64,000 nucleotides of DNA from Thermococcus indicus. Its GTDB lineage: Archaea; Methanobacteriota_B; Thermococci; Thermococcales; Thermococcaceae. A program made the translations under genes and the position numbers. This document shows positions 48,264-60,226 of this stretch, piece by piece; within the stretch, counting starts at the first letter, position 1, and the number at the start of each line of letters is the position of its first letter. Where the stretch lies: assembly GCF_006274605.1 (NCBI RefSeq), contig NZ_CP040846.1, positions 558,001 through 622,000 of the forward strand. Reading direction: 5' to 3'. Below the pieces are notes generated by a model. That model made no database searches and was not told the origin of the DNA. It saw only the letters and a program-made list of their open reading frames with translations.

Positions 48264-48313
48264 AATTTAACATCTAAAAAGAGTGTTGAATATAAAAACT
48301 GAAGGTGATGTTA

Positions 48314-49339
48314 ATGGTTAGGGGGAATGTATTCACTATAAGTCCTCCTCTCGGAACTGAATTTTTTGATATGCTACAGGAGCAGATTACGAATGCAAAG
48401 AAACGGATATTTCTAGGAAGCGCTTTTTTAGATAGCAACATAGTGAGTAAGTTGAAAAATTTAAAATCTCCAGATGTTCCAATGTATGTGCTTCTTAGAG
48501 ATAATAACAGGCCTAATAGAAGATTATATATCCCCGCTGATGATCCAAATAATGAGTTCTATGCAATAGCAGTACCCGCGCGTATGTATCATGGAAAACT
48601 CTACGTCATTGATAATATCTTTGTAGTAGGCTCTCACAATTTACTCACGTATTCTGTGACCCAAAATGAGGGAGAATTCAGCCTGATGTTACGTGGGGAT
48701 TATGAAACAGTAACAACTTTGTTGTTTAATAGCTTATATTCTATTTTTGTAAAAAATAGTAGGACATCTCTAAACTTTATTGACGATAAATTAGGTGCAT
48801 TATACTATTGGGGAGAGTGTCCTTTCTGTGGAACTGAAATTCTTTCTGATCCGTTTTCTATTATAAAGTGTCCTGACATAATGTATGGTGGGTATGTAGA
48901 TGAGCAAGAATGTGGAGATTACCATGCATGTAAATACTGCCCTTACAATGCAGGTGCCCCAAAGGAGCCCTATCCTCGTCACGAGATTTATCTTTGTATC
49001 GATGGGTGTGGATTTGGAGTTGATTTTACATCAAAAGAACTTGTTTTTCACCATAACATTAATGACAAAAATCTTGAAAAGACTATTTGGAAATTTATTG
49101 AATTGTTCAATGGGTTGTCTACAATTAAAAATGAAAAGATAATTGCAAAAATGTTTAGAGACCTCGGATTTTTTGGAAAGATACATACTCTTGATTCTGT
49201 TAGAGACGTTGATATTTTCTCTGAGCACTTTGTTAGTGTTACATATTTTAAGAATAGATTGTCGGACTTCCTTAGAGCATTTGTTGAATTCATTGAAGAA
49301 GATATTGAAAAAACACTAGATATAAATAAGGGGGAATAA
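48314..49339 (+). CDS. PLD-like nuclease domain protein with zinc-binding segment
   Basis: This 341-residue protein has one phospholipase D-type half-site, H93-x-K95-x4-D100-x5-G106-S107-x-N109 (YHGKLYVIDNIFVVGSHN), preceded by LLRDNNRPNRRLY. One such site means activity needs a dimer, as in Nuc or BfiI. After it comes a cysteine/histidine-rich part (C169, C172, C186, C200, H204, C206, C209, C228, C232) able to bind two zinc ions. A helical tail closes the protein. Coding is strongly AT-rich against its neighbours, a sign of transfer. GGTGAT at 48304-48309 sets ATG 48314. Possibly a defence nuclease. Confidence 0.7.
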   Translation: MVRGNVFTISPPLGTEFFDMLQEQITNAKKRIFLGSAFLDSNIVSKLKNLKSPDVPMYVLLRDNNRPNRRLYIPADDPNNEFYAIAVPARMYHGKLYVIDNIFVVGSHNLLTYSVTQNEGEFSLMLRGDYETVTTLLFNSLYSIFVKNSRTSLNFIDDKLGALYYWGECPFCGTEILSDPFSIIKCPDIMYGGYVDEQECGDYHACKYCPYNAGAPKEPYPRHEIYLCIDGCGFGVDFTSKELVFHHNINDKNLEKTIWKFIELFNGLSTIKNEKIIAKMFRDLGFFGKIHTLDSVRDVDIFSEHFVSVTYFKNRLSDFLRAFVEFIEEDIEKTLDINKGE

Positions 49340-49361: not shown

Positions 49362-52265
49362 TTACTCCACAAACACCGCAGGCTTCAGCGGCATCGCGGC
49401 CTTCTTCTTTCCTCCCCTGTCTTCCTCCGGATTGATGATTATCTCAACTCCAAGCTCCTTCTCCATGAAGTCCTTGGCTTCCCTCAGGGCCTTCTCCTCG
49501 TTGATGCGCTTCACGTCGAAGGCTCTCTCCTTTATGAGCCTCTGTATCAGCTTGCTGACCTCCTTGCCGTGTTTCCTCATCTCTGGGTCCTTCATCAGCT
49601 CCGCCATAGCCCCCTTGAAGTCCCTCTTCTCGGCGACGACTTCCACAACGCGCCACTTCCACTCTGGAGCCGTGTAGATGTAGGCCCTCTTGGCGTCCTC
49701 TATCTTGGCAACTCTGATGATCTCCTTGATGTCTTCGATGAGGTTCTTGACGAACTCCTCCTCGGCCTCGACCGTCTCGTTCCACCACTCCGGAACCGGC
49801 TCGGGCCACTTCGCCAGGCTGACGAAGCCCTCTCCACCGAGTTTCTCCCAGAGCTCCTCGCTGATGTGCGGCGTGAACGGCGCCATCAGCCTGACCCAGA
49901 CCTCTGCGAGCTTTCTCAGGACGAAGCGCTTCGCCTCGTCGTCCCTGCCTTCGGTTCTCCTCATGTACCAGCGCAGGTCGTTGAGGATGCTGTAAAACGC
50001 CCACTGCACGGCAGTCCTCGTCCTGAACTCTTCGAGGGCCTTGGTAGCTCCCTCGATGGTCCTGTTCAGCCTGTGGAGCATCCACCTGTCGATGTCCTTG
50101 AGCTCGACGCCCTCTTTAGCCTCATAGTTCGAGAACTCGCTCACCAGCTCGTAGAAGCGCTCGACCTGCCTGCGGAGCTTTCCGACCTCCTTCCTGCGCC
50201 AGTCGAAGTCGCTGTCGTGCTCGGCCAGTCCCATGATGTAGAGCCTCACCACATCGGCACCGTTCTCCTCGATTGCGTCTATGAAGTTCAGCACGTTGCC
50301 CTTGCTCTTGCTCATCTTGGTGCCCTCGAGAGTTCCGAAGCCGTTGACGGCTATGCCCCTCGGCCAGTGCTCCTTCCTGAATATCGCCGTGTGGTTGAAG
50401 ATGAAGAACGTCAGGTGGTTCGGGATGAGGTCTTTCGCCGAGCAGCGCCAGTCGAGCGGGTACCAGTACTCGAACTCCTCCTTCATCTCGCGGATCGTCT
50501 CCGCTGGGATTCCGGTCTTCTCGGCCAGCTCCCTCTCCTTCTCCTCGCTGAAGTCTTCCAGGAACAGGTAGTCGAAGAACTCCCTGTCGAGCTTCTCGGG
50601 GTCGAGTTTGCCCTCCTCCCTCAGCCTGTTCATGTGCCTGCTTATCGTGTAGTAGGCCATGTAAATGGTTGAGTCGCTCAGGCTCTCGATGACCCAGTCG
50701 GGGTCCCACGGGAGCGGCGTTCCAAGGCCGACCTTCCTCGCGCAGGCCTTCTTGTCGAGCCAGTCAACTATGGCCTCGAACTGTGTGCGCCTGCTCTCCG
50801 GATAGATGGTCATGTTCGCGAGGGCCTCGCGGGCCTTCTCCTTCCACTCGGGGTTTCCGTAGTCTATGAACCACTGGTCGTGGATTATCTTGATGACCGC
50901 CTGGTTGCCGAAGCGCGAGATGACCGGCTTCTCGGCGAACTCGTACATTATCTCCGCGGTTCCCTTCTCCTGGAGCTCCTTGGCTATGAGGTCTTTGGCC
51001 TCCTGGACGGACTTGCCGGCGTAGGGCTCTATCTTGAAGACTCCCTTGTGGTACTCGGCCTTGTAGATGTTCTTGGTGGCCTCTTCGAGCTTCTCAACGT
51101 CCTTCTGGCTCTTCACGCCGAGCTTCTCGGCTTCTTCAACCGCCGGGAAGTCGCCGTAGCCCTCGAGTTTGATCAGCGAGATGTAGCTTATTTCCTCCAC
51201 GATTCTCGGGTCGACCTCGTACTTCAGCAGGATTTCTGTTTCCTTCTTGAGGTCTTCCAAGGCCACGTGGTCGAAGGGAGCATGAGCAGGAACGCTCATG
51301 ACCACTCCGGTCGCGTTGTCCGGGTCAACGAACTCTGCCGGCAGGATGATGACCTCGTCGCCGGTGACCGGGTTCTTCACGTACTTGCCTATCAGCCTCT
51401 CGCCCTTGAATTCCTCCAGAACTTCAATTTCTCTGTCCTGGAAGGAGAGCTTGTAGGCAGCTTCCTTGCTGATTATCCATGTCTCCACCTTCTCGCCGCG
51501 CTTGACCTTCACCTTGACGTAGGTCGCCTCGGGGTTCAGCCACATGTTGGTAACGCCGTAAACGGTCTCGGGCCTCAGCGTCGCGGCCGGCATGTAGATT
51601 TCCTCGCCGTCCTCCTCCAGGACGAACTTGATGATGACGTAGTCCAGTATCTGGACGTCTTCGCCCTCCATTATGTCGTGGTCCCCGAGGGCGGTTCCAA
51701 CGACAGGGTCCCACCTCACGCGGTGCGCTCCCTTAACTACAAGGCCTTTATCCTTGAGCGTCCAGAACTGCCACTCTATGAACTTGCTGAAGGGCGGGAA
51801 GAGGCTCGTCGTGTGGAACTCGCGCGTCCAGTCGACGGAGAAGCCGGCCCTGATGAAGGTCTCCCTGGCGGCCTTCATGAAGTAGTTGACTATCTCCCTG
51901 GGGTCTTCAAACTTCCAGAGTACCTCCTCCGGAACCTTGTAGACGTCGCGGTAGATGTGTATCGTCTTGGGGTCGCGGTTCTTTATCCTCTCGGCGATTC
52001 CGACTATCGGCGCACCGGTGATGTGCCACGCCATCGGGAACAGCACGTTGTAGCCCTGCATGCGCTTGAAGCGCGCTATGACGTCGGGAATCGTGTAGGT
52101 CCTCGCGTGGCCGACGTGGAGGTGTCCCGAGAGGTACGGGAAGGCAACCGTGATGTAGAACTTCTTCTCCTTTGGTTTCTCATTCGCCTTCGGTTCGAAG
52201 GCCTTCTCTTCCAGCCAGCGCTTCTGCCACTTCTCCTCAATGGCCTTGAAGTTAAGCTCAGCCAT
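49362..52265 (-). CDS. leuS: Leucyl-tRNA synthetase, archaeal type
   Basis: This 967-residue class Ia synthetase charges tRNA-Leu, of which three genes are in this window. The HIGH-type motif is [20 protein letters not shown]; the KMSKS motif is present as [14 protein letters not shown]. The editing domain (CP1) lies around residues 200-430 with [12 protein letters not shown]. The archaeal C-terminal extension is kept. GGAGGT six bases upstream favours ATG 52265 over ATG 52271. Confidence 0.97.
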
Positions 52266-52421
52266 AGCCATACCTCCTCAGAATTTTTTCAAAAGAGCGT
52301 GAGCGATACTCCAGAATAGGGGTGTTATCTGGGAAATCAGGCGCGGTTGCGATTCCAGCGATGGAGAAGACACTCCCCCCTCATCGGCATCGGAGCGAGT
52401 AGGGTTCCTAATATTTAAACC
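52266..52421 (-). promoter_or_regulatory. leuS promoter and long leader
   Basis: AGGTTTAAATATT on the minus strand (rc near 52409-52421) is a good TATA box. Transcription would start near 52385-52390, leaving a leader of about 120 bases, long for Thermococcales. It holds G- and C-rich segments (for example near 52335-52380) that could pair. No known RNA element was recognised. Confidence 0.45.
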
Positions 52422-52477
52422 TTTTGCTAAAACCTGTTTTGGGTGAGGGGCCTCCTGTATTTTATACTCCCTCGCAA

Positions 52478-52492
52478 GAATAAATTATTTAA
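52478..52492 (+). promoter_or_regulatory. TATA element for the NYN nuclease gene
   Basis: AATAAATTATTTAAG sits about 70 bases before ATG 52560. The leader would be about 45 bases and ends in GGGTGG, the ribosome site. Confidence 0.45.
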
Positions 52493-52559
52493 GTGAGTGT
52501 TAGAAAGTCCTGTTGACATTAATCGTTGCCTATTGAGCATTCCCATTTGGGTGGTTTCC

Positions 52560-54653
52560 ATGTCTGGGTCTCCCAAGTTAATCTCCGTTGAACATGTCAC
52601 TAGTGGCCCAGTTGTAGTAGTGGGGAAGTATGAGGACTACAAATTCCTTCTGGACGAATACAAGCCTGAGGTTATTTATGCGTCGAATAAATACTTCTAT
52701 TTCTGGGACGGTAGCAAGTTCTATGCTTTTGAAAGAAGGGGATATAAGACATTCGGGGACGTTGAGCTATCGATAAAACTTGGATTCTGGAATGCCGTGA
52801 AGAAACTTAAATCTGACGACTCTATTAAAAGTGTGAATGTGCATGGGGATGGCACGGTTACTGTAGCGGGCTATACTAAGACGGGGGAGTATGTGGAACT
52901 TCAGTTCGACTCCGAGGGTGATTTGTTCTATTATGCTATGGACAACGAATTTGAAGATTTTGAGGAATTTGTAGATGCGTTAAGACTTGGTTTTCTTGAT
53001 GGAGAATCCTTCAGAAAAGCCCTTTCGGGTGGATTTGCAAACGCAATGGAATACTTCGATGCAGTTGCGGGAGGGTTTACCAGATTCGATGAATACGATG
53101 GAGCTAAACGCCTTAATATCAACAACCGTTGGGAATATGTGCTTTTTAAGGAACTCAATCAGATAAGGGCAGAGTATTCACTCAACACAATCGAGGAAGC
53201 CCACCTCATTAAGATTCTACGCGATATTGCCATCGGGGAGAAAATATCTCTTGAGATTCTATGGGACAAGCTACGCTCAGAGAGGAATAAGATTCTCCAG
53301 AAGTACAACGTATGGAATCAGGATATGAGCTGGTACGGGGAACCAAAAATCTTAACTGACCCAGAATCGCTCGGGGGATATCTTACGTCTTCGGAAATTA
53401 TACGAAGATTTGGGGAGTACGATGAGAAGACCAAAGTTTTCACGAGGGTTCTGCCCGGTGGATTTTTGAGTGAAGACGAGTATAAAGACGCAATTTCTAG
53501 GGGTTACACCACCCGGCGCGAATATCTTGATGCACGGAAAAGGGGGTTTGTTGATTCCCTTGCCCAGCTACAGTTGAAGGAGCCGTTTACCATCTTCAAA
53601 CCGGTAGATGACGTTTCAGAGACCCCTGATTCGGATATTAATTGGGAGTGTAGGATTAAATCCGGAAAATTCGTTGCTCGTAAGGAGCTAACGCTTAATG
53701 ACCTGGGGATTTCAACGGAGGCTGAACTCTACAGATATGCCACTGATCGTGGTTTCCAGACATTTGGGGAGTTCTTTGAGTCCCTTCAACGAGGGACGCT
53801 GAAACGGGACGAATATATAGCCATTAAGAAGGGTGGGTTTAACAATGCATTGGAATTTTTGGTTGCTGAGAAGCTGGGATATTCAACAAGGACGGAGCTA
53901 GTGGCGTTAATCTATAAGGATTACAAGGAACTTAAGGCTCTAAAAGAAAAGTATCACCTCAAGACTTACGGCGATGCGTTGATACTTAGCCTGCTCCTCA
54001 ATCTCAAAAAGGAGCGGCGGAAACTCAGCCTCGATGAGATATGGCAATGGTTAAAAGAATGTGAATATGCTTATTTCAACAGGGATTCCCTTTGGTACAC
54101 TCTGGGAAGGAAGAGCGGGAACTACAAGACCTTTACCAGCAAAGAGGAATTAGAAAAATACCTCATTGCTCTCTTAAAGAGATATGGGAGCGACATTGGA
54201 ACGTATGATATCGAGAGCAAGTCTTTCATGCCAAAGCTGCCTCCCGTCATTGTTGATGGGAGCAATGTAGCGTGGGAAGGCCGGGATAAAAGGCACGGGG
54301 AGAAGGCTCTGGCAAGGAACATTGTACTCGTCGTTGAGAAGCTGAAAGAACTTGGGTACTCCGATATTCACGTCTTTGTTGATGCTAGTCTTAGATACCA
54401 AGTGGAAGATAAAGGATTGCTGGAGAAACTAATTGACTCCGGGATTGTGGAGGTAATGCCCGCGGAAGTGCCTGCAGATGATTATGTAATAAAATACGCC
54501 AGAGATTTTGATGCTTACATAGTCTCCAACGACCGATATGTTGACTGGATAGAAAAGAACCCTAACCTCAAAGAGTTCATCAAAACACACAGGGTTACTT
54601 TCAAGATACACAAGGGAATCGTGCACTTTGACAAAAAGATTGAGGGTTTATGA
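52560..54653 (+). CDS. Large repeat protein with C-terminal NYN (Zc3h12a-like) ribonuclease domain
   Basis: This 697-residue protein ends in a PIN-like NYN domain (about 560-697): D566 in PVIVDGSNVAW, D608 in IHVFVDAS, D640/D641 in VPADDYVIKYARDFD and D658 in YIVSNDRY, the acidic set of metal-dependent RNases such as Zc3h12a/Regnase. The 560 residues before it hold short GF-x-x-x-x-E/Y-x-x-A units (residues 61-83, 131-185, 300-338, 398-450). They also contain an internal duplication: about 121-294 matches 389-556. GGTGG sets ATG 52560. Its cellular role is not known to me. Confidence 0.75.
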   Translation: MSGSPKLISVEHVTSGPVVVVGKYEDYKFLLDEYKPEVIYASNKYFYFWDGSKFYAFERRGYKTFGDVELSIKLGFWNAVKKLKSDDSIKSVNVHGDGTVTVAGYTKTGEYVELQFDSEGDLFYYAMDNEFEDFEEFVDALRLGFLDGESFRKALSGGFANAMEYFDAVAGGFTRFDEYDGAKRLNINNRWEYVLFKELNQIRAEYSLNTIEEAHLIKILRDIAIGEKISLEILWDKLRSERNKILQKYNVWNQDMSWYGEPKILTDPESLGGYLTSSEIIRRFGEYDEKTKVFTRVLPGGFLSEDEYKDAISRGYTTRREYLDARKRGFVDSLAQLQLKEPFTIFKPVDDVSETPDSDINWECRIKSGKFVARKELTLNDLGISTEAELYRYATDRGFQTFGEFFESLQRGTLKRDEYIAIKKGGFNNALEFLVAEKLGYSTRTELVALIYKDYKELKALKEKYHLKTYGDALILSLLLNLKKERRKLSLDEIWQWLKECEYAYFNRDSLWYTLGRKSGNYKTFTSKEELEKYLIALLKRYGSDIGTYDIESKSFMPKLPPVIVDGSNVAWEGRDKRHGEKALARNIVLVVEKLKELGYSDIHVFVDASLRYQVEDKGLLEKLIDSGIVEVMPAEVPADDYVIKYARDFDAYIVSNDRYVDWIEKNPNLKEFIKTHRVTFKIHKGIVHFDKKIEGL

Positions 54654-54659
54654 GGGAGT

Positions 54660-55730
54660 TCATATGATTATCAGCTCCCTCTCTGCCCTTGTCAGCCTCT
54701 TTCCCCTCCCATCGTGAACGACGACGTCGTCCTCTATGCGAACACCGCCCAGGCCCGGAACGTAGATTCCGGGTTCTATAGTGAAGGTCATGCCGTTCTC
54801 CAGGGCCACGTTTCCGTCCGGGCCGATGTAGGGCTCTTCGTGGACGTCCAGCCCGAGTCCATGCCCGGTTCTGTGGGTGAAGTACTCGCCGTAGCCGGCT
54901 TTCGCTATCGTCTCCCTCGCGGCCCCGTCCACCTCCCTCGCGAGAACACCTTCACGGACGGCCCGGTATGCCCTCTCCTGTGCCTCTTTGACGACCTCGT
55001 AGATCTCCACCAGCCTCTCGTCCGGCCGTCCAAGGGCGATGGTTCTCGTGATGTCCGAGCAGTAGCCCTTCCACTTCGCCCCGTAGTCGAGTATCACCAG
55101 GTCGCCCTTCCTGAGCCTCCTGTCCCCGGGCGCGTGGTGGGGGTTGGCGGCGTTCTCACCGCCCGCCACTATCGGCTCGAAGGAAATCCCATCGCTGAGC
55201 TCCCTTATTGCCAGCTCTATCTTCAAAGCCAGCTCCCTCTCACGCATGCCAAGCAAATCCCAGCTCAGAATCTCATCGAAGACCCTGTCCGCTGCCTTGG
55301 CGGCGTGTCCCATCATCTCTATCTCGTGCCTGTCCTTTCTCATGCGGAGCTCCCTCATGAGCGAGCTCAGGGGGTGGAACTCGAAGCTGCCGAGGCGGAT
55401 GACTTTCATGAGCCAGTCGGCCCGCATCGTGTCCTCTATGAGAAGTCTCCCGCCCGACAGGTGGAACTCCGCCAGGATCCAGGCGAGCTTGTCGTAGGGG
55501 TTCTCCCCGTCGCGCCAGAAGGTGACGGGATAGTTCCTGACAACGTTCTCGTAGAGGCTCGGGGCCAGGAGCCGGTAGTCGCCGTCGGCGCTCACAACCA
55601 GAACGGTGAGCCTCTCACCGGCCTCGTGGATGTGGAGGTCCGTGAGATAGTAGAGATTGGTCCCGGGACTGATCAGGGCACCGTCGAAGTTCCTTTCCTT
55701 CATGAGGGATACGAGTTTTTGAAGGCGCAT
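54660..55730 (-). CDS. pepQ: Xaa-Pro dipeptidase (prolidase)
   Basis: This 356-residue metallopeptidase of the M24 (pita-bread) family cuts dipeptides ending in proline. The metal ligands are seen in VILDYGAKWKGYCSDITRTI (two Asp), FTHRTGHGLGLDVHEEPYIG (His), FTIEPGIYVPGLGGVRIEDD (two Glu). The N-terminal creatinase-like domain covers residues 1-120. GGTGA before ATG 55730 sets the start. It converges on the NYN gene and is divergent from eL15. Confidence 0.93.
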   Translation of the reverse strand: MRLQKLVSLMKERNFDGALISPGTNLYYLTDLHIHEAGERLTVLVVSADGDYRLLAPSLYENVVRNYPVTFWRDGENPYDKLAWILAEFHLSGGRLLIEDTMRADWLMKVIRLGSFEFHPLSSLMRELRMRKDRHEIEMMGHAAKAADRVFDEILSWDLLGMRERELALKIELAIRELSDGISFEPIVAGGENAANPHHAPGDRRLRKGDLVILDYGAKWKGYCSDITRTIALGRPDERLVEIYEVVKEAQERAYRAVREGVLAREVDGAARETIAKAGYGEYFTHRTGHGLGLDVHEEPYIGPDGNVALENGMTFTIEPGIYVPGLGGVRIEDDVVVHDGRGKRLTRAERELIII

Positions 55731-55759
55731 CGGTTTCACCACGTTAACTACTCCGCAAC

Positions 55760-55857
55760 CCTTAAAAACTCAACCTCGAACCTCGACCGACTAGGCGGGG
55801 CAAACCCGCGGGATGTTCCCGTAAGGGAGAACCACAAACTGGGAAGAGGTGAACGAG
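55760..55857 (+). promoter_or_regulatory. eL15 promoter and structured leader
   Basis: CCCTTAAAAACT at 55759-55770 is a TATA box. The leader of about 65 bases contains competing stems: GCGGG-GCAAA-CCCGC (55795-55809), CGGGA-TGT-TCCCG (55808-55820) and CCC-GTAA-GGG (55818-55827), the last capped by a GNRA-type tetraloop and flanked by GTT/AAC. They overlap and cannot all form. A GAAGAGGTGA ribosome site follows. It may be a binding site for the ribosomal protein itself. Confidence 0.5.
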
Positions 55858-59509: not shown

Positions 59510-59890
59510 TTAACTTCCCTGCTCTTCTTCCGGACTTTCGAGCTTTATCCTCTTGATTCCCACCCTGCCGAAGGCTTTGTCGGAGCTTATTATCATTCCT
59601 CCGCAGTGGGCCGCGTGGAATGCGTCGAACGGGTTGAGACCGTGCTCCTTCATGTAGTATGCCGCTCGCAGGTAAAGGTCGTCTTCTAGTCCGGTTATGG
59701 CCATTACTGCAGCGGTGATTCTCATGGGGTCGAGGTTGAACTTTCTGGCCAGAAGGAGAAGCTCAATGAACGTGGCCTCTGACGTTGTTATCTCTCCCCT
59801 GTACCGCTCGTAGAGCTTTTTTGCGTTCTCCTTCAGCCAGTCGTTTGGTTTCATCAGGGCAAGAAAGAAATCCGTGTCTGCGTAGACCAT
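59510..59890 (-). CDS. vapC: VapC-family PIN-domain toxin
   Basis: This 126-residue PIN ribonuclease has MVYADTDFFLALMKPND, with D5 or D7 as the first acid, EATFIELLLLARK (Glu), NPFDAFHAAHC (Asp) and IISSDKAFGR (Asp). VapC toxins cut tRNA or rRNA. GGTGAGTGAG sets the start at ATG 59890, one base after the antitoxin stop. Confidence 0.88.
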   Translation of the reverse strand: MVYADTDFFLALMKPNDWLKENAKKLYERYRGEITTSEATFIELLLLARKFNLDPMRITAAVMAITGLEDDLYLRAAYYMKEHGLNPFDAFHAAHCGGMIISSDKAFGRVGIKRIKLESPEEEQGS

Positions 59891-59891
59891 C

Positions 59892-60122
59892 TCACTCACC
59901 TGCAAGCTTCTCTGCCTCTTTTAGGATTTCCACCCTTAGTTCCTCGAGGGGTATATCTGGGAGTTTATTTCCCAGCTCTTCGAGTTCCCTCAGAGGGTCC
60001 TCCGGTTTGGGAACTATTAGCACTCCATCATTGACCCTTACGAGGTAAACCTCTCTGGAGAGGTCCTTTCTCAGTTCCTTTGGGATGTATAGCCTCCCCT
60101 TGGAATCCACTTTTGCCAGCAT
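59892..60122 (-). CDS. vapB: AbrB/SpoVT-type antitoxin (VapB)
   Basis: This 76-residue protein has an N-terminal swapped-hairpin AbrB domain (MLAKVDSKGRLYIPKELRKD, then VYLVRVNDGVLIVPKPEDPL) and a C-terminal helical part that would wrap the PIN toxin. GGTGGGAAA precedes ATG 60122. It comes first in the operon, as usual for vapBC. GTTTATAACT (rc) near 60151-60160 is a likely TATA box. Confidence 0.88.
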   Translation of the reverse strand: MLAKVDSKGRLYIPKELRKDLSREVYLVRVNDGVLIVPKPEDPLRELEELGNKLPDIPLEELRVEILKEAEKLAGE

Positions 60123-60226
60123 TTTCCCACCAATATGGGTTTGATGGGACGAGTTTATAACTGTTGCCCGACAATTTTGTGGGTTACCTTTTAAAGCACG
60201 GTGTCGAATCAACCCCGGTGAGAGCG

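Follow-up and report, generated by a model that had tools for sequence, protein, structure and literature searches.

A Thermococcales protein joining a duplicated GF-repeat and predicted winged-helix module to a Zc3h12a-type NYN domain

Cutters of the Regnase type, which share the Zc3h12a-type NYN domain (PF11977), have otherwise been known mainly from the control of animal mRNA, and a set of acidic residues binds the catalytic metal in these enzymes. In other described proteins a PIN-like cutter is joined to a targeting part: OST-HTH/LK-nuclease proteins carry a winged-helix targeting part, sometimes with a duplicated HTH (PMC2848206), and protein-only RNase P (PRORP) carries a repeat targeting part (PMC10941002). 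In this study we focus on a gene from Thermococcus indicus, located in a 64,000-nucleotide stretch of DNA (the window, which means the whole stretch analysed). Its 697-residue product ends in an NYN domain, and module sequence makes up the roughly 560 residues in front of it. With middling confidence, and partly by analogy, we read this protein as an accessory metal-dependent RNA endonuclease made of a targeting front and an NYN cutter. The gene and its surroundings are as follows.

49362-52271, minus strand: leucyl-tRNA synthetase (LeuRS), divergent upstream neighbour, named from sequence and context
52481-52493, plus strand: putative TATA-like box TAAATTATTTAAG, conserved in each of the three orthologues and here 67 nt before the ATG
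52560-54653, plus strand: NYN gene, an open reading frame with 44% GC and a 697-residue product, stop codon included
54660-55742, minus strand: X-Pro dipeptidase, convergent downstream neighbour, named in the same way

The protein is present in three of the 94 genomes of the family, namely the window genome, G025 (68% identity) and G016 (67%), and in all three the gene occupies the same site between LeuRS and the X-Pro dipeptidase. The TATA-like box is kept 65-67 nt 5' of the ATG in each of them. A GTG at 52497 offers a longer alternative start only 4 nt past this box, but translation probably starts at the ATG at 52560, since both orthologues begin there and the conserved box lies upstream. 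The GC content of the gene, 44% in all three genomes, compares with about 55-59% in the genes flanking it in the window, a similar excess to that of the orthologue flanks (55-58%), and suggests a foreign origin or a distinct history. A small antitoxin gene in the same operon, as expected for a PIN toxin of a type II toxin-antitoxin system, was not found between the divergent LeuRS and the convergent dipeptidase.

The nuclease end of the protein is the part that can be assigned to a known family.

54237-54650, plus strand: Zc3h12a-type NYN domain, residues 560-697, with D566, N569, D608, D640, D641 and D658, assigned from PF11977 and the solved ZC3H12B/C chains

Residues 561-685 match PF11977 with an E-value of 3.4e-21 and 76 bits, against a curated cut-off of 23, and a phmmer comparison with the solved ZC3H12B/C chains gives E-values of 2e-8 to 4e-8 over the whole domain. 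The motifs DGSN (D566, N569), DD (D640, D641) and SND (D658) fall in register with these chains. The NYN assignment and the acidic set D566, D608, D640 and D658, proposed in an initial annotation made from the letters alone, are thus borne out, and residues 560-697 very likely adopt a PIN-like fold. The four acidic residues and N569 are identical in the three Thermococcales proteins, while D641 is replaced by Glu in the two orthologues. Compared with the window protein, the orthologues are 80-81% identical in the NYN domain and 57-69% in the front, so that the nuclease is the best conserved part. This invariance of the active site, in orthologues that are overall just 67-68% identical to the window protein, supports the endonuclease reading, as does the purifying selection reported below, and the Thermococcales domain is probably a working RNA cutter. 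Beyond the shared Pfam domain, the likeness to ZC3H12A/B/C and KHNYN ends: the protein has neither the KH domain nor the CCCH zinc finger that lies next to the NYN domain in Regnases (the protein contains two cysteines, C364 and C501, and no zinc-finger match), and its NYN domain is C-terminal, behind a long front that belongs to no described family.

The front is organised as follows.

52560-52736, plus strand: N-terminal region, residues 1-59, also recognisable in aligned methanogen proteins
52737-52820, plus strand: first GF units, residues 60-87, from self-alignment, 14-residue periodicity and methanogen BLASTP
52821-52907, plus strand: linker with a predicted beta hairpin, residues 88-116, from the AF2 model of residues 100-345
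52908-53120, plus strand: helical GF units of module copy 1, residues 117-187, from periodicity and AF2; five predicted 9-residue helices spaced 14 residues apart, net charge -11
53121-53456, plus strand: predicted winged helix of module copy 1, residues 188-299, from the AF2 order H-H-E-H-H-E-E
53457-53579, plus strand: another three GF units, with which the second copy begins, residues 300-340, from self-alignment, periodicity and AF2
53580-53711, plus strand: linker, counterpart of 88-116, residues 341-384, from hhalign and the methanogen alignment
53712-53915, plus strand: helical GF units of module copy 2, residues 385-452, from hhalign and periodicity
53916-54236, plus strand: winged-helix half of module copy 2, residues 453-559, from hhalign and AF2; net charge +6

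The internal duplication, first noticed from the sequence alone, is confirmed by two comparisons. Aligned locally with BLOSUM62, residues 101-345 and 346-560 score 178, whereas 1000 shuffles gave 36.7 +/- 6.3 with a maximum of 71; moreover, hhalign of the halves, with the orthologues included in both profiles, aligns 114-299 with 382-560 (561) at an E-value of 5.1e-15. The peptide pairs quoted in the initial annotation were all found at the residues given for them. Its span for the duplication, 121-294 and 389-556, was real but too short: judged against the methanogen relatives described below, the duplicated unit covers about 60-299 and 300-559. A 14-residue unit, G-[FY]-x4-E-[YF]-x2-A, recurs in both copies and at 300-340, with a lag-14 autocorrelation of +0.60 against a shuffle maximum over all lags of -0.27. 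The GF units at 300-338, described at first as extra, do form a true 14-residue repeat, but they are not extra: the series extends over both modules and takes in residues 60-87 as well. We also looked for a third, degenerate module in residues 1-98 and found it unsupported for the window protein (scores of 29-39 against about 27-30 for shuffles).

The modules were modelled with AF2 using only the two copies from the window. With copy 2 as the sole other row, residues 100-345 reached a mean pLDDT of 81.6, and the model consists of five 9-residue helices spaced by 14, then the order H-H-E-H-H-E-E characteristic of a winged helix, then two GF helices. Local pLDDT in the winged-helix part of this copy (188-299) is about 80-89 except in one loop. 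Copy 2 modelled with copy 1 was poorer (pLDDT 64.7), yet it shows the same terminal order of secondary structure. The GF units are thus modelled as single 9-residue helices and the C-terminal half of the module as a winged helix. As Foldseek searches of the models against PDB and viral structures returned no significant match, the winged helix stands as a prediction only; the best-ranked chains (PCI, cullin and La winged-helix) all had E-values above 0.3 and were for that reason not used as evidence of homology. Likewise, no significant Pfam or PDB match covers the GF repeats or the winged-helix part, and PDB sequence matches of the module to flavivirus NS5 and D-arabinose isomerase (E 0.02 or worse) are attributed to chance. 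Pfam, NCBIfam, PADLOC and PHROGs hold no model for the front, in agreement with the earlier view that no named family has this architecture, and the module lies outside every Pfam family in Thermococcales and methanogen members alike. The GF-repeat and winged-helix module is therefore previously undescribed, and the family has had no name so far.

Two described architectures come closest. In OST-HTH (LOTUS) and LK-nuclease proteins, such as Limkain b1/MARF1, a single or duplicated winged helix is fused to a PIN-like RNase, an arrangement that the secondary-structure order predicted here would fit. However, the nuclease here belongs to PF11977 and not to DUF88, the domain order is reversed, and GF repeats are undescribed in that group; no OST-HTH Pfam match was obtained for the whole protein or for the modules at E-values up to 10. 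PRORP also places helical repeats ahead of a C-terminal NYN domain, but it contains PPR repeats, which have a period of 35, and a split zinc-binding domain, in place of the 14-residue single-helix repeats, predicted winged helix and two cysteines of this protein; no PPR match was found in the 697-residue protein. The protein may work in the manner of PRORP and OST-HTH/LK-nuclease proteins while being a member of neither, since the defining features of both are missing.

A profile search over 396 archaeal genomes revealed single-module relatives in a methanogen phylum, 12 of whose 36 genomes carry the module. These proteins of about 507 residues come from family f46/g62, which is probably Methanocaldococcus, and from two genomes of f26/g33. 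Their order is an N-terminal region, GF units, linker, GF units, winged-helix half and NYN domain, the same as in the Thermococcales protein, with one module instead of two. By BLASTP, one of them aligns with copy 1 of the window protein at an E-value of 4e-34 and, separately, with residues 302-691 (copy 2 and NYN) at 2e-33. At the positions of N569, D640 and D658 the methanogen proteins carry other residues, while D566 is mostly kept, so that RNase activity cannot be assumed across the family. One methanogen gene (L098, in G388) is frameshifted in the NYN part and leaves the module open, which fits a decaying cutter. As judged from these alignments, the Thermococcales protein is the duplicated form with an intact active site, and the NYN site has decayed in the methanogen branch. 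In a module tree both window-type copies cluster together (89/87, under the tool's threshold), which is consistent with, but does not prove, a duplication within the Thermococcales lineage.

Since three of these positions are replaced in methanogens, the conserved job of the module may be something other than cleavage. This retention of the module beside a lost site, and the frameshifted gene, are what one would expect if the protein were a binding or scaffold protein regulating RNA, an RNP or a protein complex, its NYN domain serving as a binding platform or persisting as a remnant. We regard this as unlikely, because the active-site residues are invariant in the three Thermococcales proteins and the NYN domain is their most conserved segment relative to the window protein.

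In methanogens the single-module gene either overlaps a nucleotidyltransferase gene or lies directly against it, and this neighbour was considered as a functional partner. The link is weak, since the neighbour occurs in three methanogen genomes without the NYN gene, and none of the four Thermococcales genomes tested has it. In the phylum of the window genome, two more genomes encode 246-residue NYN proteins without the module (L004:1162-1902 and L005:1156-1896), with the same NYN type behind a part that looks OB-like by eye and has no Pfam match. Another gene (L105:82-1977) encodes a 631-residue membrane protein that has a coiled coil and ends in an NYN domain, possibly a membrane-tethered nuclease. 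In other archaea (L107, L109 and L111), a 341-residue NYN protein stands in a conserved gene row beside metallophosphoesterase, NAC-like, PUA-like and nucleotide-cyclase-like proteins, which hints at a translation-linked role; a Zc3h12a-like NYN protein has been listed beside a nucleotide cyclase (PMC11915815). Weak matches to the GF units elsewhere in the phylum of the window genome (best E 0.009) were rejected, the two top open reading frames being an ASCH-like protein and an unrelated one of 664 residues, as was a weak match in G096 that is by eye a GNAT-like acetyltransferase.

Comparison of the three Thermococcales loci indicates that the front and the nuclease have different histories.

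about 52400-54160, plus strand: segment exchanged between the G016 and G025 lineages, comprising the upstream region and residues 1 to about 534, from 60-base identity windows and informative sites; breakpoints are approximate and projected onto window numbering

DNA identity between G016 and G025 is 95% in the front, compared with 85% in the NYN part, 86% in LeuRS and 72% in the dipeptidase. Informative sites group the window with G016 at the 5' end of LeuRS (33 versus 5 and 3) and in the dipeptidase (111 versus 7 and 15), but G016 with G025 over residues 1-530 (487 versus 24 and 28), and are mixed in the NYN part (55, 38 and 34). The high identity of the front amid more divergent flanks, together with these groupings, shows that the front and not the nuclease end moved between the two lineages by recombination, the tract breaking off within the gene close ahead of the NYN domain. 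A single event among three genomes is involved; it demonstrates that exchange took place, not that exchange was selected for.

Such a swap ending just before the cutter, the patchy presence of the gene at a site that is empty or otherwise occupied elsewhere, and its low GC relative to its flanks would fit an anti-virus or anti-plasmid nuclease, whose front senses an invader component and is swapped to change specificity before the NYN domain cuts RNA. We consider this rather unlikely. The gene has no PADLOC match and adjoins no defence gene, and dN/dS values (0.10-0.14 in the NYN part, 0.23 in the front of the recently exchanged pair) indicate purifying selection throughout, not diversification. 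Of 20 other genomes of the genus (L072-L091), seven have a LeuRS-dipeptidase gap of less than about 260 bp, and the remaining gaps hold, by eye, amidohydrolases, secreted coiled-coil, beta-propeller surface or membrane proteins, or a TnpB-like gene. This cargo consists mostly of metabolic or surface genes, and the gap is a variable site of a general kind rather than a defence island. Furthermore, pattern scans of genome and viral contigs and tblastn of phages found no relative, and a plasmid collection gave just two weak, NYN-only matches. Relatives this divergent escape the insensitive genome and viral scans, as is plain from the archaeal profile search, which then found the methanogen family; bacteria were covered by these scans and by the plasmid and phage collections.

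We thus return to an accessory RNA endonuclease, for which we infer that it cuts RNA, that its modules choose the target and that its role is accessory. In this mechanism the single-helix GF repeats would form a scaffold and the winged helices would contact nucleic acid or RNP, the two tandem modules would pick out a target and present it to the C-terminal NYN domain, and this domain would cut the RNA so held. The protein would have arisen when a one-module NYN protein like those of methanogens had its module duplicated, with the active site kept here and decayed there. The division of labour is suggested by charge, as the acidity of the GF units in copy 1 (-11) argues against their direct contact with RNA and for a scaffold or protein-binding role, and the second winged-helix half is basic (+6). 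Whether RNA or protein, any ligand of the repeats is conjectural. The winged helix is also a common DNA-binding fold, and the same basic half could serve a DNA-directed regulator or nuclease; we find this very improbable, given the RNase family of the cutter, the neutral charge of the first winged-helix half (-1) and the lack of a match to any DNA-binding family. As for a role in RNA decay or surveillance, as first suggested, we found no link to it: the gene has no operon partner and such a narrow distribution within the family. A broader idea, quite doubtful, is a hitherto undescribed archaeal RNA-targeting system with swappable specificity cassettes of GF repeats and winged helix, in which exchange halts at the nuclease boundary and the dead methanogen branch acts as regulators.

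This work defines a testable protein family, in which an undescribed repeat and winged-helix module common to hyperthermophilic Thermococcales and methanogens is joined to a Regnase-type cutter. Naturally occurring single-copy versions with a dead site and double-copy versions with an intact one can be compared to learn how such accessory modules direct NYN nucleases, and the recombined front points to separate evolution of the part that aims.

Three further features were observed in the window. A PLD-domain gene at 48305-49339 on the plus strand (PLDc_2, E 3.9e-8, about 37% GC) adjoins the 3' end of LeuRS; missing from the other 93 family genomes and with a weak PADLOC match to MkoB (E 4e-4), it appears to be a lone recent import. 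A PIN-domain gene at 59510-60212 on the minus strand (PF01850, E 2.8e-11) overlaps a small AbrB-like open reading frame, and the pair looks like an ordinary VapBC toxin-antitoxin pair. Finally, an eL15-Euryarchaeota ribosomal protein leader (RF03144) at 55795-55838 on the plus strand precedes the L15e gene.
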